From contig NZ_LT860099.1 of NCBI RefSeq assembly GCF_900184995.1, positions 310,001 to 374,000 on the forward strand: a DNA stretch of 64,000 nucleotides, given 5' to 3'. Positions 1-6,085 of this stretch are shown one piece after another (the stretch's first letter is position 1; each line of letters starts with the position of its first letter). A program made the position numbers and the translations under genes. Source of the stretch: Konateibacter massiliensis. Lineage in GTDB: Bacteria; Bacillota; Clostridia; Lachnospirales; Lachnospiraceae. The notes beneath the pieces were generated by a model that searched no databases, was not told the DNA's origin, and was given only the letters and a program-made list of their open reading frames with translations.

Positions 1-36
1 CGATTGTTGCTGGAATGGCAGGGGCGTGCGTCCGTT
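1..36 (+). repeat. DGR variable repeat (VR), 3' part
   Basis: Bases 1-36 align without gaps to 601-636. They differ at positions 8, 9, 18, 21 and 22 only, and every difference is an adenine in the template copy changed to T or G. Identity ends after 36. The invariant GC-rich block at 23-36 is the natural candidate for the site where mutagenic homing initiates. The VR continues to the left of the window. Confidence 0.9.
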
Positions 37-79
37 TTTTATCTTGAAATCTGATATCTTAGTATCTGCAAGTAAGTAG
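1..79 (+). CDS. C-terminal end of DGR variable target protein (partial)
   Basis: Only the last 25 codons are inside the window, ending at TAG 77-79. The reading frame gives a GVRPF segment followed by a short tail ending in SASK. The equivalent frame of the template repeat at 601-640 reads NDCNWNDKGVRPFW, the usual C-terminal core of C-type-lectin-fold DGR targets. In the target the codons for N, D and K have become C, G and R, all by changes at template adenines. The gene is probably a tail-fibre or receptor-binding protein, but that is inferred from DGR biology because the rest of the gene lies outside. Confidence 0.85.
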   Translation, partial: DCCWNGRGVRPFFILKSDILVSASK

Positions 80-94
80 AGGGCAGCCAGTGAA

Positions 95-116
95 CAGGGC
101 TAGGGCGTAAGCCCTG
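95..116. other. Hairpin/cruciform downstream of VR
   Basis: A perfect 7-bp inverted repeat, CAGGGCT and AGCCCTG, with an 8-nt loop lies 59 nt after the VR end and just after the target stop codon. An alternative outer pairing, GGGCAG at 81-86 with CTGCCC at 114-119, could compete. Known DGRs need a GC-rich hairpin or cruciform shortly downstream of the VR for efficient homing, so this is its likely equivalent. It has no T-run, so it is not a standard terminator. Confidence 0.65.
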
Positions 117-157
117 CCCGTGAGCTTTGGATGAGATTGACAACAAGGAGCAAAATA

Positions 158-526
158 GTGAGCGAAAATAAACTGGATATTATTGTAAAAGCAATAAATC
201 TTATGGAATACACAATGACAATCACATCAAATAGAAAAAGATTTCCAGTTAAGCATTTAATGTTAGTAAGACGTATCCAGGAATGTTGTATGGATATTTA
301 TGAATATTTGATTGATGCCAATAGGATTAAATTAGATACTTCAAAATCCGAACGACAAGAATTGCAGACCAAGGCGATTTCATGTTGTGATAAATTATCG
401 TGTTATGTAGAACTTTCTATGAAATTAAATTTAGTTGGAACCGATACTGTTTCATATTGGCAAAAGCAAGTTAATGATGTGAAATATATGGCGATTGCAT
501 GGCGCTCTAAAGACAAACAGAGATAG
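158..526 (+). CDS. avd: DGR accessory variability determinant (Avd-like)
   Basis: The gene encodes a small, basic, helix-rich protein of about 122 residues lying between the variable repeat and the template repeat, the standard place for Avd. Avd is a four-helix-bundle protein that forms a pentamer, binds the DGR reverse transcriptase and helps cDNA priming on the template RNA. The start is taken as GTG 158, because AAGGAG at 145-150 lies 7 nt upstream. An upstream in-frame ATG at 131 would place this ribosome site inside the coding region. The assignment rests on position, size and helical character. Confidence 0.75.
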   Translation: MSENKLDIIVKAINLMEYTMTITSNRKRFPVKHLMLVRRIQECCMDIYEYLIDANRIKLDTSKSERQELQTKAISCCDKLSCYVELSMKLNLVGTDTVSYWQKQVNDVKYMAIAWRSKDKQR

Positions 527-556
527 ATATGAAAATGGGTTGTTTGTTGCTTGACT

Positions 557-636
557 TCCAACGTTCAGTGTGTTAACTCCAATGGCAACGTGAACTACAA
601 CGATTGTAACTGGAATGACAAAGGCGTGCGTCCGTT
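557..636 (+). repeat. DGR template repeat (TR)
   Basis: This adenine-rich copy of the VR lies in the avd-RT gap. The 3' part, 601-636, is directly supported by its match to 1-36. The 5' limit is a guess, because the matching VR lies outside the window. Adenines in AAC, GAC and AAA codons are the ones seen mutated. The stretch is also open in one frame, but that reflects its descent from target coding sequence and is not called as a gene. Confidence 0.85.
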
Positions 637-755
637 CTGGGTCGGAAGACGAAAGAAAGTAGGAGAAACACCGAAATTAGAGTCCCGATATCAAAAGAAT
701 AGACAACCTTTCCTGTCTGATAAAAGGCAGGATAAATACAAAGGATTGAAATATT

Positions 756-1823
756 ATGACAGAAGATAAAACAGATTTTGAGGTCGTTACGGATTTTGGT
801 AATTTATATCAAGCTTATAAAAAATCAAAATCAGGTAAGGGATTTTCAAAGAGCAGTCAACAATTCCAAGTGGCGACTCTTGATGGAATTCATCAAATAA
901 AAAGAAGATTAGAAACCAAAACATACGAAGTATCTAAATATAATGAATTTACAATATATGAACCAAAAGAGAGAATTATTAAAGCAGGTTCATTTGTAGA
1001 TAAAATAGTTCAGCACAGCTTATGCGATAACGTATTAATTCCTAAATTGGAATCTGAATTTATTCAAACTAATTATGCTGGACAAATTGGAAAGGGAACG
1101 TTATACGGACTCGATTGTTTAAAGGCACAAATGTATTTGGCATATCAGAAATATGGATATAATTGTTGGATAGTTAAAGCCGATATAAGTAAATTCTTCT
1201 ATAATATAAATCGCGATATTTTAATAGATATAGTTGCTTATTTTATAGAAGATAAAGATGTATTTTGGTTGTGTAAAAAGTTTATAAATAGCACAGAAGG
1301 ATTGGGGCTTCCACTTGGAAATCAAGTAAGTCAAGTATTTGCATTATTATATCTATCCGGATTAGATCATTTTGTAACCGGCGAATTAGGTGTGAAATAT
1401 TATGGAAGGTATATGGACGACTTTTATTTAATTGTAGAAACAAAAGAATGTGCTAAGTGGTGTTTAAGTAATATTTATGAATTTGTTCATTCCCTTGGAT
1501 TAGAATTGAATAACAAAACTCAAATTATACCTTTCAAAAATGGAATTAAGTTTTGTGGTTTTCATACATATGTTACGGAAGATGGCAGGGTTATTCGTAA
1601 ATTAAAGAATGAGAACAAAAGAGCTGCAAAGAAAAAATTTAGAAAGATGGCTAACTTAGTGAATAAAGGTAAGTTAAGCAAGGATAAATTTAATGAGTCT
1701 TATTGTGCATGGAAAAATCATATTTCTCATGGAAATTGTGTTAAGTTGGGATATGAGATGGATAGGGATATAGAAGAATTATTTAATAAGTCTTGTGAAA
1801 CGAATATTTCAATAGTAGATTAG
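756..1823 (+). CDS. DGR reverse transcriptase
   Basis: The 355-residue protein is a group II-intron-like reverse transcriptase of the DGR clade. It copies the TR transcript with adenine-specific errors, and the cDNA replaces the VR. Visible motifs are KADISKFFYNI (RT motif A), LPLGNQVSQ near residue 186 (the DGR form, with SQ where retroviral and group II enzymes have SP), YMDD near residue 220 (catalytic), and a GIKFCGFH thumb-proximal motif. Its length is normal for the family and all catalytic aspartates are present. With avd, TR and VR it makes a complete cassette. ATG 756 follows an AAAGGA site. Confidence 0.95.
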   Translation: MTEDKTDFEVVTDFGNLYQAYKKSKSGKGFSKSSQQFQVATLDGIHQIKRRLETKTYEVSKYNEFTIYEPKERIIKAGSFVDKIVQHSLCDNVLIPKLESEFIQTNYAGQIGKGTLYGLDCLKAQMYLAYQKYGYNCWIVKADISKFFYNINRDILIDIVAYFIEDKDVFWLCKKFINSTEGLGLPLGNQVSQVFALLYLSGLDHFVTGELGVKYYGRYMDDFYLIVETKECAKWCLSNIYEFVHSLGLELNNKTQIIPFKNGIKFCGFHTYVTEDGRVIRKLKNENKRAAKKKFRKMANLVNKGKLSKDKFNESYCAWKNHISHGNCVKLGYEMDRDIEELFNKSCETNISIVD

Positions 1824-2765: not shown

Positions 2766-4820
2766 ATGGGATTTATTAAATTCAAAGAGGAATTGCAAAA
2801 GCATTTTAAAGAAATGACTAAAGATGTGACACATTTATTTGAGGTGGAAGTAGATAAGGATGAATTATGGAATACCTATCTTAGTAGTTATCCACCCGGT
2901 ACTAATAAAATATTTAGAGAACGTACAGAAAATGATTGCAGTTGTTGCCGACACTTTATTAAAAATATTGGCAACGCAGTTATTATCAAAGACAATCAAG
3001 TACATACAGTTTGGGATTTAGAACTAAATGATACTACATATCAACCAGTAGCAAATGCATTGGCATCTTTTATTAAATCTAATGTTGTAACTGATATCTA
3101 TATTAGTAAGGAAAAGAAAATTGGCACCGATTTCAATTATGAAGATATGAACGGAAAAATGCATAAATGGGATCATTTTTATCTTGACTTACCGGACAAG
3201 TTTGTTGATAGAAGTAGCCGTTCAATTGGAGATATTCAGGGAGGATTTAGAGATACAAGAAATGTATTTAAGCGTTCATTAGATGAAATTTCTATAAGTG
3301 CACTTGATACAGTTTTAGAACTTATCAATTCGAATACTCTCTACAAAGGTGAAGAATGGAAAGGCGTACTTACAGAATTTCGTAAATATAAGAAAGAATA
3401 TGACAAATTATCATCCGAAAAAGAGAAAGAATTATATACATGGGAACAATCTGTAAAAGCTGGTGTGGCTATTGGCAGAATTAGAAACCATAGTATTGGA
3501 ACATTGCTCGTTAATATCAGTGAAGATATGGATTTAGACTTAGCTGTTAAGAAATATGAACAGATAGTAGCTCCGTCGAATTATAAACGCCCAAAGGCTA
3601 TTTTTACCAAGAAAATGCTTGAAGACGCACAGAAAACTATTACAGAATTGGGTTATATGGATTCGTTAAATAGAAGATTTGCAACGCTTGATGATATTAC
3701 GGTGAATAATATTCTTTTCTCAAATAAGGATTCCGCTAAAAGAATTGTGGGAGTGGATGATATTTTTGGAGAAATGGAAAAAGATGTTGTTGTAAATCCT
3801 AAGAGATTTTCTAAGGTAGAGGATGTTACTGCAAAAGATTTTATTGACAATGTACTTCCAACTACAAAAGAGGTTGAGGTGTTTGTAGAGAATAAACATG
3901 ATAAGAATTTTGTATCTTTAATTGCCCCAATTAATCCAGATGCTAAAACAATGTTTAAGTGGAATAATGGAATGAGTTGGGCTTACACAGGAAATATCAC
4001 AGATAGTGACATGAAACAAAACGTGAAGGCTGCCGGTGGTAATGTAGATGGTGTTTTAAGATTTTCCATTCAATGGAATGAGGATGGAAAAGACAATTGT
4101 GATTTGGATGCACATTGTAAAGAGCCTAATGGTAATGAGATTTATTTCGGCTCTGATAGAAAACCAGATGTTTCAAGGTTGGGTGGTCAGTTGGATGTTG
4201 ATATTGTTAATCCTGGTGGTAAAGTAGCTGTTGAAAATATTACATGGGCAGATCAATTAAAAATGCAACCAGGTATATATAGATTTTTCGCACACCAATA
4301 TTCTGGTAGTGTGAGAAATGGATTTAGGGCAGAGATTGAATTCAATGGTGAAATCTATTCATTCGATTATAATAAATCAATAAGAAGTGGTGAGAATGTT
4401 CAAGTAGCAGAAGTTACTTTGGATGTAAACGGAGAATTTACCATTAAAGAGAAATTATCTGGTAGTTCAACGATTTCAAGTAGGGATGTTTGGGGAGTGA
4501 GTACAAATCAGTTTACACCAGTTTCCGTGATTTGCTATAGCCCTAACTACTTTGATGAGCAAGACGGTATTGGACACAGACATCTGTTCTTCATGTTGAA
4601 AGATTGTGTGAATCCAGAGTCACCGAATGGCTACTATAACGAGTTTTTAAAGAATGAGTTAGCAGACCATAAAAGGGTTTTCGAGGCATTGGGAGCAAAG
4701 TGCAAGGTAGAAGATTTAGAAGATCAGCTTTCAGGAGTTGGATTTAGTATGACAAAGCGAGCTGATTTAATAGTTAAAGTAAAAGGCGCAACAGAAAGAG
4801 TAATGAAAATTAAATTTTAA
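2766..4820 (+). CDS. Large uncharacterised phage protein with YfaP-like C-terminal region
   Basis: The 684-residue protein is not firmly recognised. The N-terminal part has a CSCCRHF cysteine motif near residue 59. The C-terminal third (residues about 430-570) contains DLDAHC, GGQLDVDI and a long beta-rich stretch resembling the YfaP/DUF2135 type of beta-sandwich. Beyond that the function is unknown. It starts at ATG after AAGGAG and is followed by an IS3 insertion, so any operon link to the genes at 6190 onward has been interrupted. Confidence 0.55.
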   Translation: MGFIKFKEELQKHFKEMTKDVTHLFEVEVDKDELWNTYLSSYPPGTNKIFRERTENDCSCCRHFIKNIGNAVIIKDNQVHTVWDLELNDTTYQPVANALASFIKSNVVTDIYISKEKKIGTDFNYEDMNGKMHKWDHFYLDLPDKFVDRSSRSIGDIQGGFRDTRNVFKRSLDEISISALDTVLELINSNTLYKGEEWKGVLTEFRKYKKEYDKLSSEKEKELYTWEQSVKAGVAIGRIRNHSIGTLLVNISEDMDLDLAVKKYEQIVAPSNYKRPKAIFTKKMLEDAQKTITELGYMDSLNRRFATLDDITVNNILFSNKDSAKRIVGVDDIFGEMEKDVVVNPKRFSKVEDVTAKDFIDNVLPTTKEVEVFVENKHDKNFVSLIAPINPDAKTMFKWNNGMSWAYTGNITDSDMKQNVKAAGGNVDGVLRFSIQWNEDGKDNCDLDAHCKEPNGNEIYFGSDRKPDVSRLGGQLDVDIVNPGGKVAVENITWADQLKMQPGIYRFFAHQYSGSVRNGFRAEIEFNGEIYSFDYNKSIRSGENVQVAEVTLDVNGEFTIKEKLSGSSTISSRDVWGVSTNQFTPVSVICYSPNYFDEQDGIGHRHLFFMLKDCVNPESPNGYYNEFLKNELADHKRVFEALGAKCKVEDLEDQLSGVGFSMTKRADLIVKVKGATERVMKIKF

Positions 4821-4874: not shown

Positions 4875-5789
4875 TTAACTTGCTAGAAGCAGGCGGCCAT
4901 CTTGGCTCTGCTCATATAGTTTTTCAAAGTCATTTGGTGACATATAATCACAGTGACTGTGGATACGTTTTGTATTATAAAATGCCTCTAGATATTCAAA
5001 TACGAGGCGATAAGCCTGGTCGAAATCGAGGATATGAAATCGGTTCAGCCACTCCCGTTTTATGAGTGCATGAAATGATTCAATACATGCATTATCCCAT
5101 GGGAAGGCCTTTTTTGAATAACTACGCTTCATATTTTCGGTTGCTTCGTTGTAGGCTTTTGAAACATACTGAGAGCCGCGATCGCTGTGTATAATCAACG
5201 GAAGATCTGTTTTGCGACGTGCTTTTGCTTTGGTTATGGCATCAATTACACAAGAAACCTCTAACGTTTCTGAAAGTGTCCATGCAATGATTTTCCTGGA
5301 ATACAAATCCATAATGCTTGTCAGATAGACAAATCCGTCTACGGTCCAAATATAAGTGATATCGGTGCACCAAACAGCGTTAGGGCGGTCAGGATTGAAT
5401 TGTTCATCAAGGATATTTTGAAGTTCGTTACTAAAATCAGAATCTTTTGTAGTGATTGTCCATGGTTTTACCCATTGCGCTTTAATTCCCATTTCCTTCA
5501 TGTAGGTACCAACCGTTCGTTCTGCAATAACTTCTCCCTTTTTTTTGAGCTCTTTGGTGATTTTGGGAGCACCATAGTTTTGTTTGGAGCCATCATAAAT
5601 CTCTCTTATTTTGGCCTTTATAGTTTTCTTTCGTACGAGTGTATTTGAAGGAGTTTTTCTTAAAAATGCGAAATATCCCGATCGTGAAACGCCTAAGATT
5701 CGCAGCACTCTGGAGACAGAAACACGGCGTCCGTTTTTCTTGGAAGCTTCTGTCTTCTCAGATACTTCGAGGTAAATGGCTTGCGTCAT
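4875..5789 (-). CDS. IS3-family transposase OrfB (DDE domain)
   Basis: The 304-residue protein has the integrase-core fold of IS3 OrfB. The catalytic triad is visible: D in CTDITYIW (near residue 142), D in IHSDRGSQY (near 203), and E in NACIESFHALIKRE (near 239). An HTH_21-like N-terminal segment follows a KAKIREIY motif. It overlaps the end of orfA by 4 nt through ATGA, with GGAAAATGA at the junction, so the OrfAB fusion could be made by a -1 shift. It appears intact. Confidence 0.95.
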   Translation of the reverse strand: MTQAIYLEVSEKTEASKKNGRRVSVSRVLRILGVSRSGYFAFLRKTPSNTLVRKKTIKAKIREIYDGSKQNYGAPKITKELKKKGEVIAERTVGTYMKEMGIKAQWVKPWTITTKDSDFSNELQNILDEQFNPDRPNAVWCTDITYIWTVDGFVYLTSIMDLYSRKIIAWTLSETLEVSCVIDAITKAKARRKTDLPLIIHSDRGSQYVSKAYNEATENMKRSYSKKAFPWDNACIESFHALIKREWLNRFHILDFDQAYRLVFEYLEAFYNTKRIHSHCDYMSPNDFEKLYEQSQDGRLLLAS

Positions 5790-6085
5790 TTTCCCAGAAT
5801 GCCGATGGCTTTTTTTAACACATCAAGTGCATCCTGTGTGTCGCGCAATTCACGCTTAAGACGGGCAATCTCCTTTTCTTCATCCGAAGAGAAATTTCCA
5901 GAGCCTCTAGATTCGAGATCACCTGTCTCACGAAATTCTCTTTGCCATCTTGATATAGACTGGTGGCTGATTCCAAGATTGTTGGCACAGCCAATCAAAC
6001 CAAGCTCCTTGTGGTCATGATAGTACTGGATGCAATCCAATTTAAATTGTTTGTCATAGTTCTTCGGCATAATGAGACCCTCCAT
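5786..6085 (-). CDS. IS3-family transposase OrfA (HTH)
   Basis: The 99-residue protein has a helix-turn-helix (NNLGISHQSISRW) that binds the terminal repeats, followed by a leucine-zipper-like coiled coil (DEEKEIARLKRELRDTQDALDVLKK) typical of IS3 OrfA. It lies immediately upstream of orfB and overlaps it. The sequence is undamaged, so the element may be mobile. Confidence 0.93.
   Translation of the reverse strand: MEGLIMPKNYDKQFKLDCIQYYHDHKELGLIGCANNLGISHQSISRWQREFRETGDLESRGSGNFSSDEEKEIARLKRELRDTQDALDVLKKAIGILGK

Follow-up and report, generated by a model that had tools for sequence, protein, structure and literature searches.

Parts of the cassette

The window analysed here, a stretch of 64,000 nucleotides from Konateibacter massiliensis contig NZ_LT860099.1 (G000:C7:310001-374000; the contig is called C7 below), starts inside a variable repeat (VR), and its left flank was taken from the same contig (L003). 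At this edge lies a complete diversity-generating retroelement (DGR) with a target gene, a hairpin, avd, a template repeat (TR) and a reverse transcriptase (RT) gene. Its parts run in the order target, hairpin, avd, TR, spacer, RT:

C7:309291-310079 (L003:9291-10079; window 1-79 is the 3' part), + strand: target gene, 262 aa, from the open reading frame and an AlphaFold model
C7:309955-310036 (L003:9955-10036; window 1-36 is the 3' part), + strand: whole VR, from alignment with the TR
Window 97-119, + strand: hairpin 3' of the target, its 9-bp stem interrupted by one bulge, its loop GTAA
Window 158-526, + strand: avd, 122 aa from a GTG start, matching the Avd family phrog_3206
Window 555-636 (L003:10555-10636), + strand: TR, its 3' end a GC-rich stretch common to the VR
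Window 637-755, + strand: spacer between TR and RT
Window 756-1823, + strand: DGR reverse transcriptase, 355 aa with YMDD, matching RVT_1, phrog_1423 and 8ub7

An initial annotation of the window had named the same five elements, and hairpin, avd and RT lie where it placed them; the cassette extends to window position 1823, past the end at 640 given there. The leftward extension that it had called for recovered the whole target and the whole VR from the same contig.

The Avd protein matches phrog_3206 in PHROGs (E 8.3e-19) and the NCBIfam model NF033474 (E 1.3e-7; 31.9 bits, below the cut-off of 80). The avd start position is the same in relatives, and a solved-structure search with avd gave no match. 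For the RT, matches were obtained to RVT_1 in Pfam (E 9e-15) and to phrog_1423, Reverse transcriptase, in PHROGs (E 1.4e-106), and a profile of 11 relatives had as its top solved chain 8ub7 (E 7e-42), which we take to be the BPP-1 DGR RT, with group II and retron-type RTs ranking below it. The top NCBIfam model was a group II maturase at 111.9 bits, far under its cut-off of 300.

When a bulge and G-T pairs were allowed, eight of the clade's 14 cassettes reached the hairpin threshold, compared with 4.9% of shuffles, and the hairpin started 56-63 bases past the VR in 7 of these 8 (at 85 in L032). A scan for perfect stems, which misses the hairpin at window 97-119, found a stem of at least 7 bp in 11/153 VRs versus 3.1% of shuffles. 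By analogy with BPP-1, the spacer between TR and RT would be part of the template RNA. Two other candidates in this region were rejected: a 72-aa open frame through the TR is broken in L013/L014 and not kept among relatives, and the Rfam family RT-2, considered as template RNA, scored 18.6 bits against a gathering score of 40 and was not listed at that score for 16 relatives. Directly 3' of the DGR, window 2766-4820 encodes a protein of 684 aa that closely matches phrog_1735 (E 2e-267, function unknown).

The target consists of an N-terminal domain (N-domain) followed by a C-type-lectin fold, with the VR at the end of the reading frame. It matches phrog_9958 in PHROGs (unknown function, E 2e-24) and, below cut-off, DUF6273 in Pfam; a solved-structure search with the target profile returned nothing below E 0.9. 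An AlphaFold model based on 74 aligned targets reached a pLDDT of 91.5. The top structural match of residues 100-256 was a bacterial IgA peptidase (Z 13.8, 152 residues, rmsd 2.7), and the next were many C-type lectins (Z 6.5 to 8.6). The VR is thus predicted by the model to sit in the C-terminal C-type-lectin domain.

Adenine-specific differences and activity of the family

The initial annotation had reported five differences, all at template adenines, and 31 identities over 36 bases. Re-alignment of window 1-36 with 601-636 reproduced this exactly (differences at positions 8, 9, 18, 21 and 22). Nine of the 36 template bases are A, and by our own arithmetic the chance that five of five differences fall on A is C(9,5)/C(36,5) = 3e-4. 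The full alignment covers 82 bases and shows 14 differences, 14/14 at template A, so that the search for non-adenine differences in the rest of the VR found none. Changes affect 14/23 A positions and 0/59 non-A positions; the hypergeometric value of 3.7e-10 is optimistic because the block was delimited by a score that tolerates A mismatches. Along the 600-base diagonal the likeness breaks down beyond this block. A whole-genome search with the TR found the TR itself and the VR match and no further targets, and one with the target found the target itself and the TR match.

Two similar sequences exactly 600 bases apart could in principle be an ordinary diverged duplication with no DGR mutagenesis behind it. 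We regard this as exceedingly improbable, given the restriction of the changes to adenines, the presence of RT and avd, and the recurrence of the same pattern in relatives. RT searches gave 16 loci, 80 loci in genomes and 80 in viral contigs, 15 of the last already being among the earlier loci. A TR/VR pair was found in 138 of the 163 loci examined; the finder penalises non-A mismatches and demands at least four A differences and three times as many of these as of non-A ones, and its counts therefore lean towards DGRs. Some of the 25 loci without a pair are incomplete. The target lies upstream of the TR in 72 of the 138 pairs (including the present element and its copy L023) and downstream in 66. 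With 16 loci judged by hand to be duplicates left out and at most two VRs taken per locus, the pooled loci were changed at 1825/3558 template adenines and at 39/9255 other positions; the changed adenines became G in 1010 cases, T in 615 and C in 200.

The duplication reading is further contradicted by cassettes that are otherwise identical. L015 and L018 show no differences in 666 target bases, 80 TR bases, 508 bases of avd and spacer and 1100 bases on the RT side, and their VRs differ at 12 of 80 positions, all at template A. Between L134 and L135 the target differs at 1/664 bases and the TR at none, and 14 of 15 VR differences fall on template A. The comparison of close relatives, suggested as a check at the outset, thus shows VRs that are not identical and that differ almost exclusively at template adenines. 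Since L015 and L018 differ solely in the VR, these sequences indirectly indicate mutagenic retrohoming in relatives and, with it, an active DGR family. The earlier remark that the cassette looks active consequently stands for the family; it does not extend to the present strain, because the sole near-identical record, L023, shows 0 differences over 8,245 bases, VR included. L023 may be the same isolate as the present strain.

Several further observations were made on these loci. Two or three non-adenine VR/TR differences, mostly at third-codon positions, occur in L009/L028 and L012/L031 (two in L009, three in L012); those of L009 and L012 may reflect TR drift or TR exchange after the last homing. 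In L022:4001-5034 the RT is frameshifted near its end, and even so the VR is not the same as in near-identical cassettes. Several upstream-type cassettes (L035-L049, L108-L124 and others) have two tandem lectin targets, each with its own VR, and one TR. The target of L020 is short and lacks the N-domain, and that of L052 is broken. Among 145 related genomes an RT match at E 1e-60 was found in two, one being the present genome and the other 40% identical. The present genome also carries a second DGR (L001; G000:C7:865037-868651, - strand) with a 353-aa RT and a 118-aa ORF at the avd position; its target ORF belongs to a different type, and its TR and VR, paired over 126 bases, differ at 14 positions, every one a template A. 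On a Ruminococcus bromii contig, a tmRNA and a run of tRNA genes lie just downstream of the DGR (L051:5850-8862).

Position in the prophage and proposed role of the target

The DGR belongs to a tailed-phage prophage of ~142 kb, IMG/VR record IMGVR_UViG_2882238243_000002 (142,446 bases). By our own arithmetic this record corresponds to C7 ~219.9-362.3 kb, which places the right end of the prophage near window 52,300. The relevant blocks are:

C7 ~228.6-262 kb, - strand: minor tail, tape-measure, structural, portal and tail proteins
C7 309-312 kb, + strand: DGR, preceded by a gene with a sub-threshold sigma-like match and by a GmrSD_N gene

Inside the prophage there are, as judged from ORF lengths and starts, two copies of a transposase unit made of two ORFs, the second of them integrase-like (window 4875-6085 and C7:227418-228628); the copy at C7:227418-228628 abuts the 3' end of the minor tail gene C7:228625-232158 and may interrupt it.

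The target gene lies outside the tail module. Nine large phage records were compared (L192 and L207 without RT, L137 with a target lacking the N-domain): in 9/9 the nearest portal or tape-measure match was on the strand opposite to the target, at a distance of 48-76 kb by our own arithmetic, and a portal match was found in 8/9. Weaker tape-measure matches mean little, because the profile phrog_4211 also matched 12/14 control genomes; the portal profile matched 1/14. Our results favor, with moderate confidence, the hypothesis that this DGR of a large temperate Clostridia phage diversifies a non-virion, early protein that most likely acts inside the cell. Gene position is of course no proof of where a protein acts, and the DGR may be an ordinary one whose target is a virion protein, either a small receptor-binding protein or a head or tail decoration, encoded merely outside the structural block; its hypermutation would then help the phage attach to hosts or surfaces, in the manner of BPP-1. 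The usual reading of phage DGRs is that they diversify proteins for host attachment, and Roux et al., in the portion of their report available to us, describe most viral targets in their phage clades as annotated tail proteins (PMC8144416). In PHROGs, the lectin part of the present target also matches the Hoc-like head-decoration family phrog_10993, weakly (E 4.7e-5); this match is at domain level, as are those of the lectin part to predicted phage proteins, some of them named tail-collar fibre or receptor-binding. We keep the virion protein as a serious, if rather doubtful, alternative; the distance and strand of the target relative to the portal and tape-measure matches speak against it.

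The gene neighbourhoods also argue for a non-virion, early protein. Neighbours were compared in 98/310 gene clusters of upstream-type and 40/145 of downstream-type cassettes, picked by frequency and length, and the families considered were the best 25 of 151 and the best 25 of 69 for PHROGs and the best 25 of 53 for Pfam. The 25 most frequent PHROG families around upstream-type cassettes include methyltransferases, ParB-like, helicase-loader and replisome families and one terminase family, and no tail families; the Pfam families listed include RecT, SSB, Thg1 and NAD synthase, and also terminase domains. Around downstream-type cassettes, by contrast, the PHROG families listed include baseplate, tail fibre, tail and endolysin families, together with unknowns. 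One branch of the RT tree splits the upstream- from the downstream-type cassettes with an SH-aLRT of 93, in a tree made by a quick method from 125 rows and midpoint-rooted, in which the split carries no star and the branch of L106 is very long. These DNA-metabolism neighbours weigh against a virion protein, whereas the match of two members of the upstream-type set to terminase weighs against the non-virion reading; the set also includes two leftover RTs.

A third line of evidence comes from the N-domain, which is conserved and starts at residue 1-5. Modelled alone it reached a pLDDT of 90.1. Foldseek gave no confident match (best E 0.31), and the best VIA-align match, an exosome subunit (Z 5.0, 79 residues, rmsd 3.0), was not usable; the lack of a fold match does not show that the fold is new. 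Scanning with the N-domain yielded 33 loci. The domain opens 23 of the 157 DGR targets listed, plus that of L116 with G at position 2; among DGR targets it is confined to the present subclade, other upstream-type targets being without it, and this limitation counts against a non-virion reading. Outside DGR phages the domain is present in phage records of smaller size, where decapeptide repeats come after it. In Dulem virus 35 the gene for the N-domain and decapeptides lies a short way past repressor genes and is followed by AAA, remodelling and helicase genes. The neighbours in L198, L201, L205, L209 and L212, judged by eye, are presumably repressor-, antirepressor-, exonuclease- or replication-like, least clearly so in L212. 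These genes of six phage records thus look like parts of early regions, which supports the non-virion, early reading and tells against a virion role.

Two observations concern the N-domain proteins themselves. In L197-L212 and L178 they carry long arrays of near-identical decapeptide repeats whose number differs, possibly another way of varying a protein. The large records L192 and L207 keep an N-domain-lectin gene, and no RT was found in the whole record nor a TR nearby; possibly the DGR was lost and the target kept.

The target might also reach the lysogen surface, or be released, by an unrecognised route, and protect the lysogen by binding other cells or phages. Its C-type-lectin fold would suit such a role, and many cellular DGR targets are membrane-bound binders according to the accessible part of PMC8144416. 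We consider this improbable, however: no membrane-like stretch (19 residues with a mean Kyte-Doolittle value >1.6) was found in 92 upstream-type target entries, duplicates included, the 19-residue maximum of the present target is 0.86, and the N-terminus is taken up by a conserved domain. The lack of membrane-like stretches is also in line with a non-virion, early protein, as is the fusion of a related target, nd12_tgt2 of the metagenomic phage nd12, to DUF3310 (E 2.5e-16). The gene for nd12_tgt2 follows one with a weak, sub-threshold MazG match. For target2 of the nd4 and nd12 DGRs the authors propose receptor binding, in the sections of their article open to us (PMC10743442), a point in favor of a virion protein; for the nd12 one, with DUF3310 and the weak MazG match next to it, an early protein fits as well.

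Taking the mechanism from BPP-1, the TR would be transcribed, the RT with Avd would copy the TR RNA while misreading adenines, and the cDNA would replace the VR upstream of the hairpin, so that the C-type-lectin domain of a single small protein would change its face with each round. This protein, probably made together with the early and DNA-metabolism genes, would be a non-virion protein and no tail fibre. The N-domain would be a phage module, found elsewhere with decapeptide repeats, that here presents a hypermutable binding face, most likely inside the cell, to varying proteins of host defence or of competitor phages, although the ligand is a guess. Extending this, we tentatively suggest that a whole lineage of Clostridia phages may use its DGR for an intracellular early protein and not for host tropism. 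In the present subclade the N-domain might then serve as an adapter, linking one and the same process in the cell to decapeptide repeats of variable number or to a hypermutable lectin; the process might, for instance, be the neutralisation of changing host-defence proteins or the exclusion of other phages. If this is true, targeted protein diversification would serve the virus inside the cell, and VR variation in gut phages could not count as a record of host switching.

Comparison with known systems

As a DGR the element belongs to a familiar type; the unusual point is that, across a lineage, the whole cassette with its small targets lies away from tail genes. Such a lineage among DNA-metabolism genes offers a recurring and tractable case for testing an intracellular role, and the N-domain provides a handle for finding partners. 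In the openly licensed literature we found nothing on the N-domain or on this DGR lineage. With BPP-1 (mtd, avd, TR, brt) the present element shares the order target-avd-TR-RT, adenine mutagenesis, a hairpin after the VR and a C-type-lectin target. The Mtd of BPP-1 is a tail-fibre protein encoded among tail genes, whereas the present target is a small protein with an unrelated N-domain, and its gene is far removed from the tail genes.

Closer in sequence is nd12, with an RT 47% identical to the present one and a target2, nd12_tgt2, that is 27% identical over 98% of the present target; it likewise has a DUF6273 lectin, with the VR of target2 at the 3' end. As far as the available text of that study goes, target1 of the nd4 and nd12 DGRs is tentaclin, an Ig-domain protein, and target2 is additional (PMC10743442). 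There, target2 with its DUF3310 stands beside target1, whereas the present element has one target and another N-domain. In the DGRs of Faecalibacterium prophages, Lelie among them, the VR likewise lies at the C-terminus of a DUF6273 domain, and the RT of Lelie is 35% identical to ours; unlike the present element Lelie has one large and one small target, and the portion of the article at hand does not mention the present N-domain (PMC11792537).

Among the five phage records that match the present target none is Quimby-like. Quimbyvirus ORF 84 is nevertheless one published precedent, the nearest that we have seen, for a non-structural phage DGR target: in the text of that report accessible to us, it lies off the structural module on the opposite strand, and a non-structural role linked to defence is proposed for it (PMC8008677). 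ORF 84 is one of two targets in these Bacteroides phages, the other of which adjoins tail-fibre genes, according to the same text (PMC8008677). In the present case, by contrast, the cassette as a whole lies away from the tail genes, and does so across a lineage in Clostridia.
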